Source of the DNA: a virus
IMG/VR virus record: IMGVR_UViG_3300030101_000481
Coordinates: 1 to 20,346 of that record
Reading direction: 5' to 3' (one strand)
DNA: 20,346 nt
Part shown: one piece after another, positions 3-16,276 of the stretch
Layout of the letters: every line of letters starts with the position of its first letter
Numbering within the stretch: position 1 is the stretch's first letter
Notes under the pieces: model-generated
Told to the model about the DNA's origin: nothing
The model's input: only the letters and a program-made list of their open reading frames with translations
The model's database searches: none
Position numbers and translations under genes: made by a program

Positions 3-1067
3 AGCAAGACCTATTCGCTTTGTCAATTGTTTATTGTTAAATGCTTAGAAGAAACAGGCAAAGTGTTTACTATATGCAGAAAGACACTACCTGCTCTTAA
101 AGGTACAGCATATCGTGATGTTTTGAATATCCTAAAAGAACTAGAACTATACTCAGAAGAAAATCATAACAAATCAGAATTATCATATACCCTCAATGGA
201 AACTTAATAGAATTTATTTCAGTGGATCAGCCAGTAAAGATACGCGGAAGGAAACGCCACTATCTATGGTGTAATGAAGCAAATGAATTTAATTATGAAG
301 ATTGGCAACAGCTAATACTTAGAACAACAGAAAAGATATACTTAGACTACAATCCTTCTGATCCTTATTCTTGGATATATGAAAAGGTACACACGAGAGA
401 TGATTGCACATTTTTACAATCTACATATAGAGCCAATCCATTCTTAGATGAAGATACTATTGCAGAGATTGAAAGATTAAAAGATATTGATCCTGACTAT
501 TGGCGTGTGTATGGATTAGGTGAGATAGGAACAGTACAGACAATGATATTTAGAAACTTTAATTTAGTAGATGACGTACAAGGTCGTTTAGTTGGTTATG
601 GTTTGGACTTTGGCTTTACTAATTCACCAACAGCATTAGTAGAAATTAGACAATTAGATGATAGTTTATACATTAAAGAATTATTATATGAAAAGAGATT
701 AACCAATACTGACTTAGCTAATAAGCTAAAAGAAATGGGAATAGATAGACAAGCAGAAATAGTAGGTGATTCAGCAGAACCAAAATCAATAGAAGAAATA
801 TATCGTCAAGGCTTCAATATAAAACCTGCTAAGAAGGGAGCAGGAATACATTTAGGTATTGACATAATGCGTAGATACAAACTAAACATAACAAAAGATA
901 GTCTAAATGCAATAAAAGAATTTAGAGGTTATAAATGGGCGACAGACAAAAATGGTGATGTATTAAATACTCCCGTAAAGGTAAACGATCATCTCGTTGA
1001 CGCAACGCGGTATCTATGTTTGAACAAGCTATCTATCAATCATAGTGGCAAGTATTATATATTGTAA
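3..1067 (+). CDS. terL: Terminase large subunit (5' end outside window)
   Basis: ATP-driven DNA packaging motor and headful/cos nuclease that docks on the portal. The reading frame is open to the left edge, and the first codons read SKTYSLCQ, which fits the end of a Walker A P-loop (G-x-x-S-S/G-K-T). So the true start lies upstream and the TTG at 27 is not a real start. Counting from that TTG, a Walker B-like segment HYLWCNEA sits at residues 78-85. The RNase H-like nuclease domain shows three acidic motifs: YGLDFGFTNSPTALV (D194), GDSAEPKSIEEI (D248) and VNDHLVDATRYL (D325). The DSAEPKS motif is typical of Terminase_3/PBSX-type large subunits. The C-terminus is complete. No small terminase is visible, presumably because it lies upstream. 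Confidence 0.93.
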   Translation, partial: SKTYSLCQLFIVKCLEETGKVFTICRKTLPALKGTAYRDVLNILKELELYSEENHNKSELSYTLNGNLIEFISVDQPVKIRGRKRHYLWCNEANEFNYEDWQQLILRTTEKIYLDYNPSDPYSWIYEKVHTRDDCTFLQSTYRANPFLDEDTIAEIERLKDIDPDYWRVYGLGEIGTVQTMIFRNFNLVDDVQGRLVGYGLDFGFTNSPTALVEIRQLDDSLYIKELLYEKRLTNTDLANKLKEMGIDRQAEIVGDSAEPKSIEEIYRQGFNIKPAKKGAGIHLGIDIMRRYKLNITKDSLNAIKEFRGYKWATDKNGDVLNTPVKVNDHLVDATRYLCLNKLSINHSGKYYIL

Positions 1068-1100: not shown

Positions 1101-1682
1101 ATGAAAGAGGTTAAATTAATAATACCTGATAATTGGAAAGACATAACTATTGGAACATATCAAAAGTATGTCAAGATTCAGGAAGGCAAAGGAACAGACA
1201 AAATAAAGGTTGTAAAGAGTTTAGCGTTATTATGTGGCACTTCACCCTTTATTGTTAAGAAAATGGCTTACAAGGACTTGTTGGAGATAATGGACATAAT
1301 TAAAAAGATGATTGATACTGAACCTACAGAACAAGATTTTAAAAAGCTGTTTACATTTAAAGGTGAAGAATATGGATTCTGCCCTAACCTTAGCAAACTT
1401 ACGACAGGTGAGTATATTGATTTAGAGGCTTATTGCAAAGAACCTATAGAGAACTTGCATATTATTATGTCAATACTTTATAGACGTGTTACAAATAAGG
1501 TGAATGAAAGATATGCTGTAGAGTCTTACGATCCTGAAGAATTTAAAGAAGAATTATTCAAGGACTGTCCAATGAATATAGCTCTGTCAAGTCTAGGTTT
1601 TTTTTTGACTTTAGGAGAAAGATTGGCGAAGATTTCGCACCGCTTTTTGGAAGCTCACCAAACGACACCACAAAAGGCGTAA
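1101..1682 (+). CDS. Tail assembly chaperone, short (G-like) form
   Basis: 193-aa protein made by normal decoding. It starts with MKEVKLIIPDNWKDITIGTY, a 'P-x-x-W-x-D-I-T-I' opening I associate with phage tail assembly chaperones. It is helical, mixed-charge, and has no membrane segment. Its last 25 residues follow a run of nine T at 1598-1606 and end at TAA 1680-1682. After that, 150 bases would be non-coding before the next ATG, which is unusual in such a packed region. Slipping -1 at the T run resolves this (see the 1101-1846 entry). By analogy with lambda gpG, the short form would coat or chaperone the tape measure protein during tail assembly. The start is the first ATG after the repeated upstream element. 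The role is inferred from architecture and the downstream domain rather than from a strong match. Confidence 0.72.
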   Translation: MKEVKLIIPDNWKDITIGTYQKYVKIQEGKGTDKIKVVKSLALLCGTSPFIVKKMAYKDLLEIMDIIKKMIDTEPTEQDFKKLFTFKGEEYGFCPNLSKLTTGEYIDLEAYCKEPIENLHIIMSILYRRVTNKVNERYAVESYDPEEFKEELFKDCPMNIALSSLGFFLTLGERLAKISHRFLEAHQTTPQKA

Positions 1683-1846
1683 CAATGCAAAGCAAATGGG
1701 GTTGGTATAATGTTTTGTATAGCTTATCCAATTCTATCTTAGACATTGAAAAAATAACTAGATTACCCATATTAGAGGTACTAACATACTTGGCTTTTAG
1801 TCAAGATTATAATAATAAACAACGTAGCAACTATGATAACTTTTAG
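1101..1846 (+). CDS. Tail assembly chaperone, -1 frameshifted (GT-like) form
   Basis: Predicted 248-aa fusion. Zero-frame codons GGT TTT TTT TTG offer T TTT TTT (1598-1604) as an X XXY YYZ slippery heptamer. After a -1 slip the frame reads on through GAC TTT AGG and stays open to TAG at 1844-1846. The added 80 residues contain KWGWYNVLYSLSNSILDIEK followed by ITRLPILEVLTYLAF, which resembles the C-terminal 'T' domain of phage tail chaperones (W-x-x-Y, then 'L/I-x-E-x-L-T-Y-L'). The stop lies 14 bases inside the next gene (ATG 1833), the kind of coupling seen elsewhere in the window. The T domain would contact tail tube subunits. Alternatives are transcriptional slippage on T9, or a homopolymer sequencing error: a tenth T would fuse the gene into one frame. 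Confidence 0.72.
1598..1606 (+). promoter_or_regulatory. Slippery T9 frameshift site
   Basis: Nine consecutive T between GG and GAC. In the chaperone frame the codons are TTT TTT TTG, so both P- and A-site tRNAs can re-pair after a -1 shift. A 5-bp stem with a 3-base loop (1626-1630 with 1634-1638) lies about 20 bases downstream, farther than a usual stimulator. T9 is also long enough for RNA polymerase slippage. Confidence 0.68.
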
Positions 1847-9912: not shown

Positions 9913-10896
9913 ATGAAGAAAAAGAAAAAACTTATAGAATTAATCATAGATGAAACTGCAGACCACTTTGGTGTAGATGCCATTTCCGTTGTCAAATTCC
10001 CTGCTATAGAGGAAAACTTTGTTTTCTTTAATAATGACTTTTTAAGTCTAGCAAAAGCAGATGAAGAAAAGAAACAATTAATTGGTGCTATTCTGATTCC
10101 TGAGAAACGTATTCCAAGACTCGATAAGGAAACTAACGAGGAGTACGACGTTTACTTTACTAAAGAAACTATAAAACAAGCTCAGAAGCTATTTATGGCT
10201 AGTTTAAACAACAATAATCACACTTATGAACATAAAGAGCCAATACAAGGTTTAACGGTCGTAGAATCGTGGATTAAGGAAGATAAGAAATTTGACAAAT
10301 CCAATATGTATGGTTTTAAAAACTTACCTGTTGGAACGTGGTTTGTTCAGGTATCAGCAGAAAATAATCCTGAGATTTGGGATGCTATCAAGAATAAAGA
10401 GGTTAGAGGTTTTTCTATTGAAGGCTACTTCACAGACAAGCTAATAGAAGCATCTAAGGAAGTAGATATATTAGACGAAGTATGTGAGGATTGTCCTGAT
10501 GAGGTAACAATGAGCAGAATTAAAGACGTTATTCTACAAAATGAACTACAGCCTGTAGGTGCTTTAGATGGTGAGCCTTTATTTAGAACTAAAGAGGAAG
10601 CTGAACTATATGCTGAAATGTTTAAAGGTTGTTCAGGTAGTCACCCTCATACAGTAGACGGTGTTAAATTATTTATGCCATGTGCTGACCATTCATCGGC
10701 TACAATGCGAGAGGAACACGCTGAAACAGGACGTAAGAAACGCAAGAAAAAATACAAGATGTTAGAATATATTGCTTACGCTAAACGTAAAGCTATGTTA
10801 AAGTATTCTTGGGACGAATGTATGAGAGATCAAATGAAACAATATGGCAATAAAGAAACTGCTGCAAAAGTATGTGCTACAATTAAATTCAAGTAA
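9913..10896 (+). CDS. XkdF-like prohead serine protease with extra C-terminal modules
   Basis: 327 aa. Residues 1-175 match the XkdF/Peptidase_S78-type prohead protease pattern: GVDAISVVKFPAIEENF (20-36), LIGAILIPEKRIPRLD (56-71), HTYEH (103-107, candidate catalytic His) and VRGFSIEGYF (164-173, candidate nucleophile Ser168). It would cleave scaffold and capsid precursors during head maturation, and it lies just upstream of both. The remainder is unusual. A Cys/His cluster C240-x3-H244-x-H246 ... C257-x2-H260 looks like a metal site. A very basic segment (274-282) leads to a terminal module SWDECMRDQMKQYGNKET (299-316) followed by AAKVCATI. Both tail modules recur, as I remember, on other phage head proteins with no known function. 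The start follows the repeated upstream element. Confidence 0.8.
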   Translation: MKKKKKLIELIIDETADHFGVDAISVVKFPAIEENFVFFNNDFLSLAKADEEKKQLIGAILIPEKRIPRLDKETNEEYDVYFTKETIKQAQKLFMASLNNNNHTYEHKEPIQGLTVVESWIKEDKKFDKSNMYGFKNLPVGTWFVQVSAENNPEIWDAIKNKEVRGFSIEGYFTDKLIEASKEVDILDEVCEDCPDEVTMSRIKDVILQNELQPVGALDGEPLFRTKEEAELYAEMFKGCSGSHPHTVDGVKLFMPCADHSSATMREEHAETGRKKRKKKYKMLEYIAYAKRKAMLKYSWDECMRDQMKQYGNKETAAKVCATIKFK

Positions 10897-10922
10897 AAAA
10901 ACGCTAAAAGAAATAAACAATA

Positions 10923-10941
10923 TTAACTCCTTTATATTTAT
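10923..10941 (+). promoter_or_regulatory. Repeated TTAAC/TTTATATTTAT element, copy 3
   Basis: TTAAC at 10923-10927 and TTTATATTTAT at 10931-10941, 7 bases before ATG 10949. Its position supports 10949 as the scaffold start and suggests that scaffold and capsid have their own transcript. Confidence 0.5.
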
Positions 10942-10948
10942 AAATGTT

Positions 10949-11644
10949 ATGAGTACACTAGAAAAAATTTTAAATATCTTAAAAATGAAAAATGAACCTA
11001 AATCTTATAGCGTAAAATTCTACGCTGAAATGAAATTAGAGGACGGTCGTATACTTGCTACAGAAGATGAGCAGTTTATGATTGGCTCTAAAGTATTTGC
11101 TGTCGGTGATGACGGCGAAGCTAGTCCATTAGAAGCGGGAAGCTACACTATGGAAAATGGTAATAAAATGACAATCGGTGATTCTTCTGAAATCCTAGAC
11201 TTAGGAGAAGAAAAAGAAGCTGAAGATGTTGAGGCATCTGAGGAAGAACTTTCTGAAGAAGTAGAGTCTAAAGAAGAAGTTGAATCTAAAGAAGAAGAAT
11301 TAGCTGAAGAAGCTGATGTTGCTGATTGGAAAGGAATGGAAATTAGAATTAAGAATCTTGAAGATGCTGTTGCAGACCTTAAAGCAGACAAAGTAGAAGC
11401 ATCTGCTGAAGAATTATCTGAAGAAGAAGAAGTAGAACAAGATAAAACAGAAATGTCTAGCGAGGTTATAGGTGAACTTATGACTCAAATCGAAGATCTT
11501 AAAAGTAAAATAGTAGAACTAAGCGGAGAACCTGCAAGTGAGGGTATTGAATACAATCCTGAGGGAAGAAACTTTAACTCTACTGTTGATTTAACGAAGT
11601 TGTCTACTAAAGAGAGGGCAGCATATTACATTAATAATAAATAA
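10949..11644 (+). CDS. Acidic scaffold-like protein
   Basis: 231 aa from ATG 10949. The frame is open back to 10844, but that earlier ATG would overlap the protease by 53 bases and swallow the repeated upstream element, so 10949 is preferred. Residues about 22-84 form a small beta domain (FYAEMKLEDGRIL, then AGSYTMENGNKMTIGDSSEI). About 86-170 is very acidic and contains repeated VESKEE units, and 130-147 and 170-192 could form coiled coils. An acidic, coiled-coil protein between protease and major capsid genes is the classic place and composition of a scaffold, digested by the protease after assembly. A role as a capsid-associated or decoration protein is the main alternative. It ends 9 bases before the capsid gene. 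Confidence 0.68.
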   Translation: MSTLEKILNILKMKNEPKSYSVKFYAEMKLEDGRILATEDEQFMIGSKVFAVGDDGEASPLEAGSYTMENGNKMTIGDSSEILDLGEEKEAEDVEASEEELSEEVESKEEVESKEEELAEEADVADWKGMEIRIKNLEDAVADLKADKVEASAEELSEEEEVEQDKTEMSSEVIGELMTQIEDLKSKIVELSGEPASEGIEYNPEGRNFNSTVDLTKLSTKERAAYYINNK

Positions 11645-14113: not shown

Positions 14114-16276
14114 ATGAAATTAGATTTAATAAAACTATCACACTACAATATCCCGCACTTAGTAGAAGATTCAAAGAATGATTGGGTTTCTTTTGGTGAG
14201 GACAATCTATATCCTAACTACTTACTAGACCTATTCTTAGGCAGTGCTATTAATGGTGCTTTAATTAAGTCTATAGGTGCAATGATTTATGGTGAAGGCT
14301 TAGCTGCTACAAATGCAGATGATAATACAGACACTAAAGAATCATATCTACGTTTAACAGAACTATTACATAATTCAGATGATGATGTACTAAAAGACCT
14401 AGCAATGGACTTAAAGCTATTCGGTGGCTGCTATGTTAATGTTATATGGTCTAGGGATCGTAGTAAGATTGCTAAAATGAAACACATACCTGCTCAGTAC
14501 ATACGTTCAGGTAAAATGATTGACGGTGAAATAGACACGTATTATTATAGTGCTAATTGGGCAAAATGTAAAAAGGCAGAATACAGACCACGTGCTTATG
14601 CAGCTTTTAATACTGAGGATAGAACACAAGCAAGTCAAATCTTAATGATTAGAGATAAAAACCCTGCTTTATTTTATGGGTTTGCACCTGATTATGTAGC
14701 TGCAACGGATTGGATTCAAATGGAATTAGAGATTGCTCAGTTTCACTTGTCTAATATAACTAGCGGTATGACTCCTAGTATGCACGTTGGATTCTCTAAC
14801 GGTGTCCCTACAGATGAGGAACGTCGTACTATAGAACGCCAATTAAACGCTAAATTTGCAGGTAGTGGCAATGCAGGTAAAATACTTATTACTTTTAATG
14901 ACGGAAAAGAAACAGCACCAATTATAGAACCTATCCAAATGAATGATGCACAAAGTGCTTGGGAAGGTATGTCAAAACAAGCTGTAAATCAAATTTTAGC
15001 AGGTCATAGAGTTACATCACCGATATTATTTGGAATACGAGCAGAAGGCGGTGGTTTAGGTAATAATGCTGATGAATTACGTGATGCTTTTAGTTTATTT
15101 ACAAACACAGTGGTTATTCCGTTCCAAAACACGCTTTTAAAGGGTTTAGATAAGATATTTAGAGTTAATGATATAAACCTTGATTTATACTTTAAATCGC
15201 TTAAACCTGCCGATTTCATTGATTTAGAAGTTACTAAGACACAAAGCGAGGAAGATCAAGAGAAAGAAGGTGTTACTAAAGAGGATATAAATACAGATAA
15301 TTTAAAGCAAGAATTTAAAGACTTACAAGATATAGACACTAAGCCAACGCAAGGAATGATTGACGAAGCTATAAAGGGTTTAGAGTGGCGTAGAGAATAC
15401 GGACGTGGTGGCACAGAAATTGCGGTTGCTAGAGCAAGAAATATCTCTAATAATGACAACCTTAGTTTAGACACCATAAAAAGAATGAATAGTTTCTTTG
15501 CTAGACACGAAGTAGATAAACAAGCCGAGGGTTTTAATCCTGGCGAAGAAGGTTATCCTTCAGCAGGGAGAATTGCTTGGGCATTATGGGGTGGTGATGC
15601 AGGACAAAGTTGGTCAAAAAAAAAAGTTAAAGAAATAGAGGGCGTTAGAGATGATTTGTCTGATGATGAGTTTGATGAATTATTAGATAATTTACAAGGC
15701 GAACAAATAGATTTAGACAAGTGGGAAATAGTTGATGAACAAGATGAAGGTGTTATAGAAGATTATGAAGAATGGGCAGATGATTTAATTAGAAAAAAAG
15801 AAAACTTTGCAGATGAAATTAGAAGCAAAGAAGATTTGCCAAGTCAATTAGATAAATCATACTATAGGGTTAGATTTAAGTATTACAGAAAAAATAAAAG
15901 AGCAAATAAAAAAGGAAATGGATCGAGGAAATTCTGCCAAAATATGATGCGACTATCAAACGCAGGTTTTGTTTATAGATTAGAAGATATAGACAAAGCT
16001 AGTAGAGAGGGTGTAAATAGGCAATTAGGACATAAGGGCAGACCTTATTCGCTTTGGAAATGGAAAGGCGGAAGGTGGTGCAAACATTCTTGGAGAACGA
16101 TGCTTTACAGGCTTAAAGAAGGAACAGAATTAAAAGAAGGACAAAGTTTAGATGATGACTATAAAAAAGTAGATAGCATACCTAAAAGCTATAAACCAAG
16201 ACCTAGAGGAATAGATATTGCAGAGGGTGTAGCAAATGCAAGTAATAATTGGTATAAATATCCAGGAACAAAATAA
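14114..16276 (+). CDS. Portal protein with two extra C-terminal modules
   Basis: 720 aa, longer than the usual 400-550 for portals. Residues 1-370 form a portal body: 'W-V-S-F-G-E-D-N-L-Y-P-N-Y' (24-36), 'D-L-K-L-F-G-G-C-Y-V-N-V' (99-110), and HLSNITSGMTPSMHV (211-225) before the wing/clip region with VTSPILFGI (300-308). It forms the dodecameric ring for DNA entry and docks terminase and connector. Module A (about 412-505) contains 'F-F-A-R-H-E-V-D-K' and YPSAGRIAWALWGGDAG (481-497), a motif I recall on assorted phage head proteins. A very acidic linker (508-560) follows. Module B (583-668) has S604-R-K-F-C-x2-M-M, 'Y-R-L-E-D-I-D' and YSLWKWKGGRWCKHSW (645-660), resembling a C-terminal domain of phage head morphogenesis proteins. 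The fusion is in one frame, though A10 at 15616-15625 separates the modules. Confidence 0.85.
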   Translation: MKLDLIKLSHYNIPHLVEDSKNDWVSFGEDNLYPNYLLDLFLGSAINGALIKSIGAMIYGEGLAATNADDNTDTKESYLRLTELLHNSDDDVLKDLAMDLKLFGGCYVNVIWSRDRSKIAKMKHIPAQYIRSGKMIDGEIDTYYYSANWAKCKKAEYRPRAYAAFNTEDRTQASQILMIRDKNPALFYGFAPDYVAATDWIQMELEIAQFHLSNITSGMTPSMHVGFSNGVPTDEERRTIERQLNAKFAGSGNAGKILITFNDGKETAPIIEPIQMNDAQSAWEGMSKQAVNQILAGHRVTSPILFGIRAEGGGLGNNADELRDAFSLFTNTVVIPFQNTLLKGLDKIFRVNDINLDLYFKSLKPADFIDLEVTKTQSEEDQEKEGVTKEDINTDNLKQEFKDLQDIDTKPTQGMIDEAIKGLEWRREYGRGGTEIAVARARNISNNDNLSLDTIKRMNSFFARHEVDKQAEGFNPGEEGYPSAGRIAWALWGGDAGQSWSKKKVKEIEGVRDDLSDDEFDELLDNLQGEQIDLDKWEIVDEQDEGVIEDYEEWADDLIRKKENFADEIRSKEDLPSQLDKSYYRVRFKYYRKNKRANKKGNGSRKFCQNMMRLSNAGFVYRLEDIDKASREGVNRQLGHKGRPYSLWKWKGGRWCKHSWRTMLYRLKEGTELKEGQSLDDDYKKVDSIPKSYKPRPRGIDIAEGVANASNNWYKYPGTK

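Follow-up and report, generated by a model that had tools for sequence, protein, structure and literature searches.

The gene that starts at position 1101 of the window (the whole stretch of viral DNA analysed here, 20,346 nucleotides, positions 1 to 20,346 of IMG/VR record IMGVR_UViG_3300030101_000481) almost certainly contains a programmed −1 shift at a run of nine T's, and slippage of RNA polymerase on this run is probably the main route by which the −1 frame is reached. One gene would in this way give products of 193 aa and 248 aa with a common N-terminal domain of 168 residues, and both are presumably made. The product is likely to be a tail assembly chaperone of the lambda G/GT type. Tail chaperones extended through a −1 shift are a familiar phenomenon.

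In the frame of the 1101–1682 ORF the run is read as GGT TTT TTT TTG and contains two in-phase heptamers, T TTT TTT (1598–1604) and T TTT TTG (1601–1607). The first-pass annotation, made from this sequence, had placed the nine T's and the in-phase T TTT TTT correctly to the base, and the translation agrees with its proposal that a −1 slip opens 80 further codons up to the TAG at 1844. The residues added are FDFRRKIGEDF...KWGWYNVLY...LPILEVLTYLAF...YDNF, and the long form is predicted to be 168 + 80 = 248 aa. The extension fills the 150 otherwise empty bases 1683–1832 and accounts for the 14-base overlap with the next gene, as had also been proposed; within the window's clade, 65 of 73 distinct relatives share this overlap. 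Runs of T9 or A9 are about as frequent in this AT-rich window as expected (3 observed, 3.4 expected), and since a lone T9 is no more than expected, the case rests on comparison with relatives.

Table 1. Positions of the gene, its parts and its neighbours in the window, and of the Nonlabens phage homologues
Feature	Position	Strand	Remarks
Terminase large subunit, C-terminal part, open at window edge	3..1067	+	Pfam Terminase_3 1.3e-25, Terminase_3C 4.2e-16
Zero-frame ORF, short form, 193 aa	1101..1682	+	From ORF list; pN/pS-type ratio 0.13 before the run
N-domain, residues 1–168	1101–1604	+	AF2 model, pLDDT 88
T9 slip site	1598..1606	+	T9 or T10 in 237/237 loci reaching the site
−1 frame extension, 80 codons + TAG (1844–1846), KWGWY motif	1604..1846	+	Open in all complete relatives
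Dual-coding overlap, zero frame and −1 frame	1607..1682	+	Ratio 0.35 in −1 frame vs 0.81 in frame 0
ATG in −1 frame, just after zero-frame stop	1685..1687	+	ATG in 62/72 distinct clade members
Next ORF, 163 aa	1833..2324	+	ATG at 1833; overlaps extension by 14 bases
Tape measure candidate, 572 aa	8162..9880	+	PHROG virion structural protein 3.6e-25; tail length tape measure 1e-6
P12024L/S genes 40 and 41	L082 14001–14695, L083 4010–4704		Two halves of one recoded gene

Among the closest relatives, taken as the best 80 of the 112 found in one scan of viral contigs, the run is exactly T9 and at the same position in all 80 loci, the zero-frame ORF is 193 aa long in 78 of them, and the −1 frame is open for 79–81 codons in all 79 complete copies. 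The longest invariant stretch of the gene in these relatives is GGTTTTTTTTTGA, while upstream of it none of the degenerate codons for invariant residues is frozen (0/64). Profile scans, the last of which found at least 592 relatives, extended the set. The site is reached by 237 viral loci, some of which are overlapping stretches of one contig, and counts were therefore made on the 204 distinct sequences, with identity down to ~25%. The run is T9 in 198 of them, T10 in six and shorter in none. The −1 extension follows the run in every locus that reaches the site, and a motif of the K[WY]GW type is recognisable in nearly all. A Bacteroidetes MAG contig likewise carries the T9 form, and no relative was found in the genome contigs scanned with alignment A1.

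Among cultured phages, tblastn revealed no relative besides the Nonlabens phages P12024L and P12024S (Inhavirus); two matches to Xanthomonas phages (E 0.8 and 0.008) are weak and are regarded as chance. Genes 40 and 41 of the Nonlabens phages (phrog_32199, phrog_38404) follow the terminase gene and encode a homologous N-domain (~25% identity) and a homologous extension, with a T9 at their junction and a continuous −1 frame, although the T9 stands in another codon phase. In GenBank and RefSeq the halves are annotated as two separate hypothetical genes and the long form is missed. The model of the extension similarly matches separately annotated viral ORFs of 53–84 aa, one of 53 aa at 81% identity, which indicates that current annotation splits the gene. 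The expectation that a conventional gene call would overlook the long form has thus been borne out, in hundreds of viral contigs as well as in reference phages.

Selection on the −1 frame was assessed by pN/pS-type ratios (pooled Nei-Gojobori) for each frame and segment in the close relatives. The ratio is 0.13 in frame 0 before the run and 0.11 in the −1 frame beyond the zero-frame stop. In the overlap it is 0.35 for the −1 frame, 0.81 for frame 0 and 1.65 for the +1 frame, the last with many stops; here the −1 frame is under stronger constraint than frame 0. In eight distant groups with long zero-frame tails the −1 frame is once more the one with the lowest pN/pS, 0.13–0.71 as opposed to 0.44–0.98 for frame 0. 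The hidden −1 frameshift proposed at first pass is hence strongly supported by the T9 or T10 at all 237 loci, by purifying selection on the −1 frame and by a natural fusion of both domains described below.

Slippage of RNA polymerase on the T9 would add one U to part of the transcripts, in which ordinary translation would continue into the −1 frame to yield the 248-aa form, while a third-frame stop near the run would end the other slip products at once. In line with this, the +1 frame has a stop within 1–4 codons in 57 of 62 relatives, although these early stops may be caused by the conserved residues of the other two frames. Across the 204 distinct sequences a run of at least nine T's is retained in all three codon phases. 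Around the two central TTT codons the flanking T's are divided between left and right as 2+1, 1+2, 3+0, 2+2 or 3+1, and their sum is never below three. On a tree of 94 sequences the flanking codons changed at least 21 times on the left and at least 26 times on the right, and the run never fell below nine.

Slippage of bacterial RNA polymerase is efficient on nine As or Ts (PMC5009743) and on Tn with n > 8 (PMC3711429), which is about the length of the RNA-DNA hybrid in the polymerase, ~9 bp (PMC5009743, PMC3711429). The retention of at least nine T's in any phase despite changes in the flanks, and the match of nine to the hybrid length, lean toward RNA polymerase, whose slippage fits this pattern better than a ribosomal heptamer does. 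A homopolymer of nine is also found in Thermus thermophilus dnaX, in Shigella mxiE and spa13 and in many IS transposases; a nearby third-frame stop is described for Thermus dnaX, and in such genes, as here, it is the run length and not its phase that seems to matter (PMC5009743, PMC3711429). The present gene differs from them in belonging to the structural module of a phage, and its proposed slippage is deduced from sequence comparison.

In 338 other genes of the clade (277 kb), T9 or longer runs are absent, against 3.2 expected from synonymous-codon shuffles. A9 occurs 9 times against 21.8 expected and A10 or longer twice against 19.9, and T7 is depleted to the same extent whether or not it is in phase. 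The sign test for compensation between left and right T's was not significant, owing to the small number of independent events (5–7 phase changes), and some of the flanking T's may owe their presence to amino-acid constraints acting in two frames. With so few phase changes and a non-significant sign test, transcriptional slippage is what we infer from the pattern of the run.

Other forms of the gene come from two distant matches among 396 Bacteroidota genomes, L249 and L248. L249 (1198–1935, − strand) lies in a Bacteroidota prophage and is one uninterrupted ORF of 245 aa, which contains both domains but no slip site. Its N-domain aligned with that of the window gene at 94% in hhalign and its extension at 87%, and no relative other than itself was found in 298 genomes of its order. 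L248 belongs to a prophage-type family (L248/L250–L279) represented in 60 of the 301 genomes from a single Bacteroidota order, in which the gene lies directly downstream of the terminase gene. Both domains are homologous to those of the window gene (hhalign 96% and 94%), and a long −1 extension is present in 29 of 30 members. The extension is conserved in this family (..FEKFKYINTINSLAGGDITKW..YERVLTKLLLNKTEAEYQKRY..). All 30 contain an in-phase T TTT TTT, but here T7 is enough for most (T7 in 23, T8 in four, T9 in three) and the flanks vary freely.

A further case was observed in Flavobacterium phage 6H (L281 10048–10927). Its gp10 resembles the N-domain, and the unannotated gap after gp10 contains, in the −1 frame, an extension-like segment GLGMKGVLLSMAESG...TPLWEILIRMYDITKRS. 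A TAG immediately follows T TTT TTC in this phage.

In programmed −1 ribosomal frameshifting two tRNAs would instead slip on U_UUU_UUU (1598–1604) or U_UUU_UUG (1601–1607) of an unaltered mRNA. Tail chaperones usually rely on this route (PMC5009743), which for the present gene is a possible, though less probable, explanation. An in-phase T TTT TTT is found at every locus of both families, and its presence inside every T9 counts against the transcriptional route. So does the T7 of the sister prophage family, which keeps exactly T TTT TTT and is shorter than the known threshold for polymerase slippage. However, a ribosomal slip requires only seven T's, since the sister family manages with T7, whereas in the window's clade nine or ten are present in each of the 204 distinct sequences, in three phases. 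Moreover, no other type of heptamer was found despite the great divergence, and in E. coli ribosomes slip only weakly on U_UUU_UUU (PMC5009743). Single-sequence folding downstream of the site gave a weak signal and no clear structure (mean z-scores of −0.7 to +0.1 immediately behind the run, without a sharp peak) and was not counted in favour of a stimulator; a search of Rfam gave no match. A stimulatory RNA structure downstream of the site is frequent in −1 ribosomal frameshifting but not obligatory. The ribosomal heptamer of the first-pass annotation thus proved to be in phase everywhere, but what selection maintains is a run of nine or more in any codon phase. Judged from these sequences, transcriptional slippage seems the better supported of the two for the window's clade, while the T7 of the sister family would fit ribosomal −1 frameshifting.

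It is about an even chance that one gene family has exchanged its recoding mechanisms, with polymerase slippage on T9, ribosomal slippage on T7 or plain fusion in its different branches; as part of the same evenly balanced reading, a large Bacteroidota-type phage lineage would use slippage on its strictly maintained T9 to fix how much of one tail-chaperone form is made relative to the other. If it is RNA polymerase that slips, tail assembly would depend on transcription errors occurring at a set rate. A literature search, which mostly covered papers available without subscription, found no description of such dependence, no universal T9 pointing to transcriptional slippage, and no family combining T9, T7 and fused forms. 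The three versions of one gene provide a natural comparison on which machine slips and on why the gene is split.

The extension could also be a separate small protein, of 53 aa, translated without any frameshift by re-initiation at the ATG at 1685, which lies two bases past the zero-frame stop and is a possible restart codon. The adjoining stop and ATG, the presence of the ATG in 62 of 72 distinct clade members, the separate annotation of P12024 gene 41 and the separate 53–84 aa ORFs among viral entries would all suit this explanation, but as a whole it is very improbable. The overlap wholly precedes the ATG, so that the −1 frame is selected between the run and any restart codon. In the other 10 of the 72 members the ATG is replaced by CTA, TTA, TTC or CTG. 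For 116 of 200 relatives the zero-frame ORF continues beyond the motif and its tail reaches as many as 95 codons, which makes re-initiation after the stop impossible in these. In addition, the fused gene L249 exists in nature, and re-initiation leaves the T9 without explanation. Selection on the −1 frame before the ATG and zero-frame ORFs that pass the motif rule out re-initiation as the sole mechanism, although an additional short product may start at this ATG in the window's clade.

In L129, L165–L198, L205, L217 and others, the zero-frame tail is 55–95 codons long and covers the extension domain wholly or for the most part, and the pN/pS of this tail is mostly 0.6–1.0. The long zero-frame tails of the distant relatives represent a sizeable collection of dual-coding sequences.

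Homopolymers are error-prone and L249 does have a single ORF, but there is next to no likelihood that the true run is T10 with one continuous ORF, or that the halves are a broken pseudogene. The same −1 relation recurs across 204 distinct sequences, which come from many separate metagenomes, and in two Nonlabens phage genomes; relatives with T10 likewise depend on a −1 shift, and both domains are conserved. Neither of the two findings that the first-pass annotation had named as fatal to the frameshift, a T10 forming one continuous ORF and homologues lacking the run or similarity in the extension, was thus encountered among these relatives, all of which keep the run and a similar extension. The homologue comparison that it had suggested found the conserved homopolymer as T9 or T10 throughout the window's clade and a single uninterrupted ORF in L249.

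In the lambda G/GT type, the short form binds the tape measure protein and the extension binds the tail tube, and neither is found in the virion. By analogy with lambda gpG/gpGT, the short form of the present gene would probably form a coat on the tape measure protein, with its helical counterpart, the extension of the long form, probably recruiting the tail tube subunit. The gene resembles lambda G/GT in having two predicted forms, the longer reached by shifting to the −1 frame close to where the first ORF ends, in the conserved shift site joining two overlapping frames with selection on the −1 frame, in the C-terminal extension, modelled as all-helical with moderate confidence (pLDDT 73), and in its place in a structural and tail gene module, between the terminase and the tail genes. 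In contrast to lambda G/GT, the slip site in every relative is a homopolymer, T9, in place of a variable heptamer. Chaperone genes of this type typically lie immediately before the tape measure gene, although this position is not strictly defining. Here the tape measure candidate, presumed to be the chaperone's partner, is not the next gene but lies four genes, ~6.3 kb, downstream in the same structural module.

The model of the N-domain matches the P12024S homologue and the Flavobacterium phage 6H protein R9VW65. In BFVD it gives borderline matches to annotated tail assembly or tape measure chaperones (E 0.012–0.35, prob 0.97–0.99). Searches with Pfam and PHROG profiles gave no named chaperone family for either the N-domain or the extension, and the PDB gave no match by sequence or by fold. 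The tail assembly chaperone identity given at first pass is probable from the module context and the borderline fold matches; the extension, which had been called typical of such chaperones, matches no named family of them.

Three further features were observed elsewhere in the window. An A10 run (15616–15625) lies inside the portal ORF (14114–16276). In this ORF the portal match spans residues 4–407 of 720, and residues 403–508 match phrog_2859, suggesting a fused extra domain. The protease ORF (9913–10896) and the next ORF (10844–11644) match consecutive parts of the 349-residue phrog_24921, and their products may be one protein in other phages.
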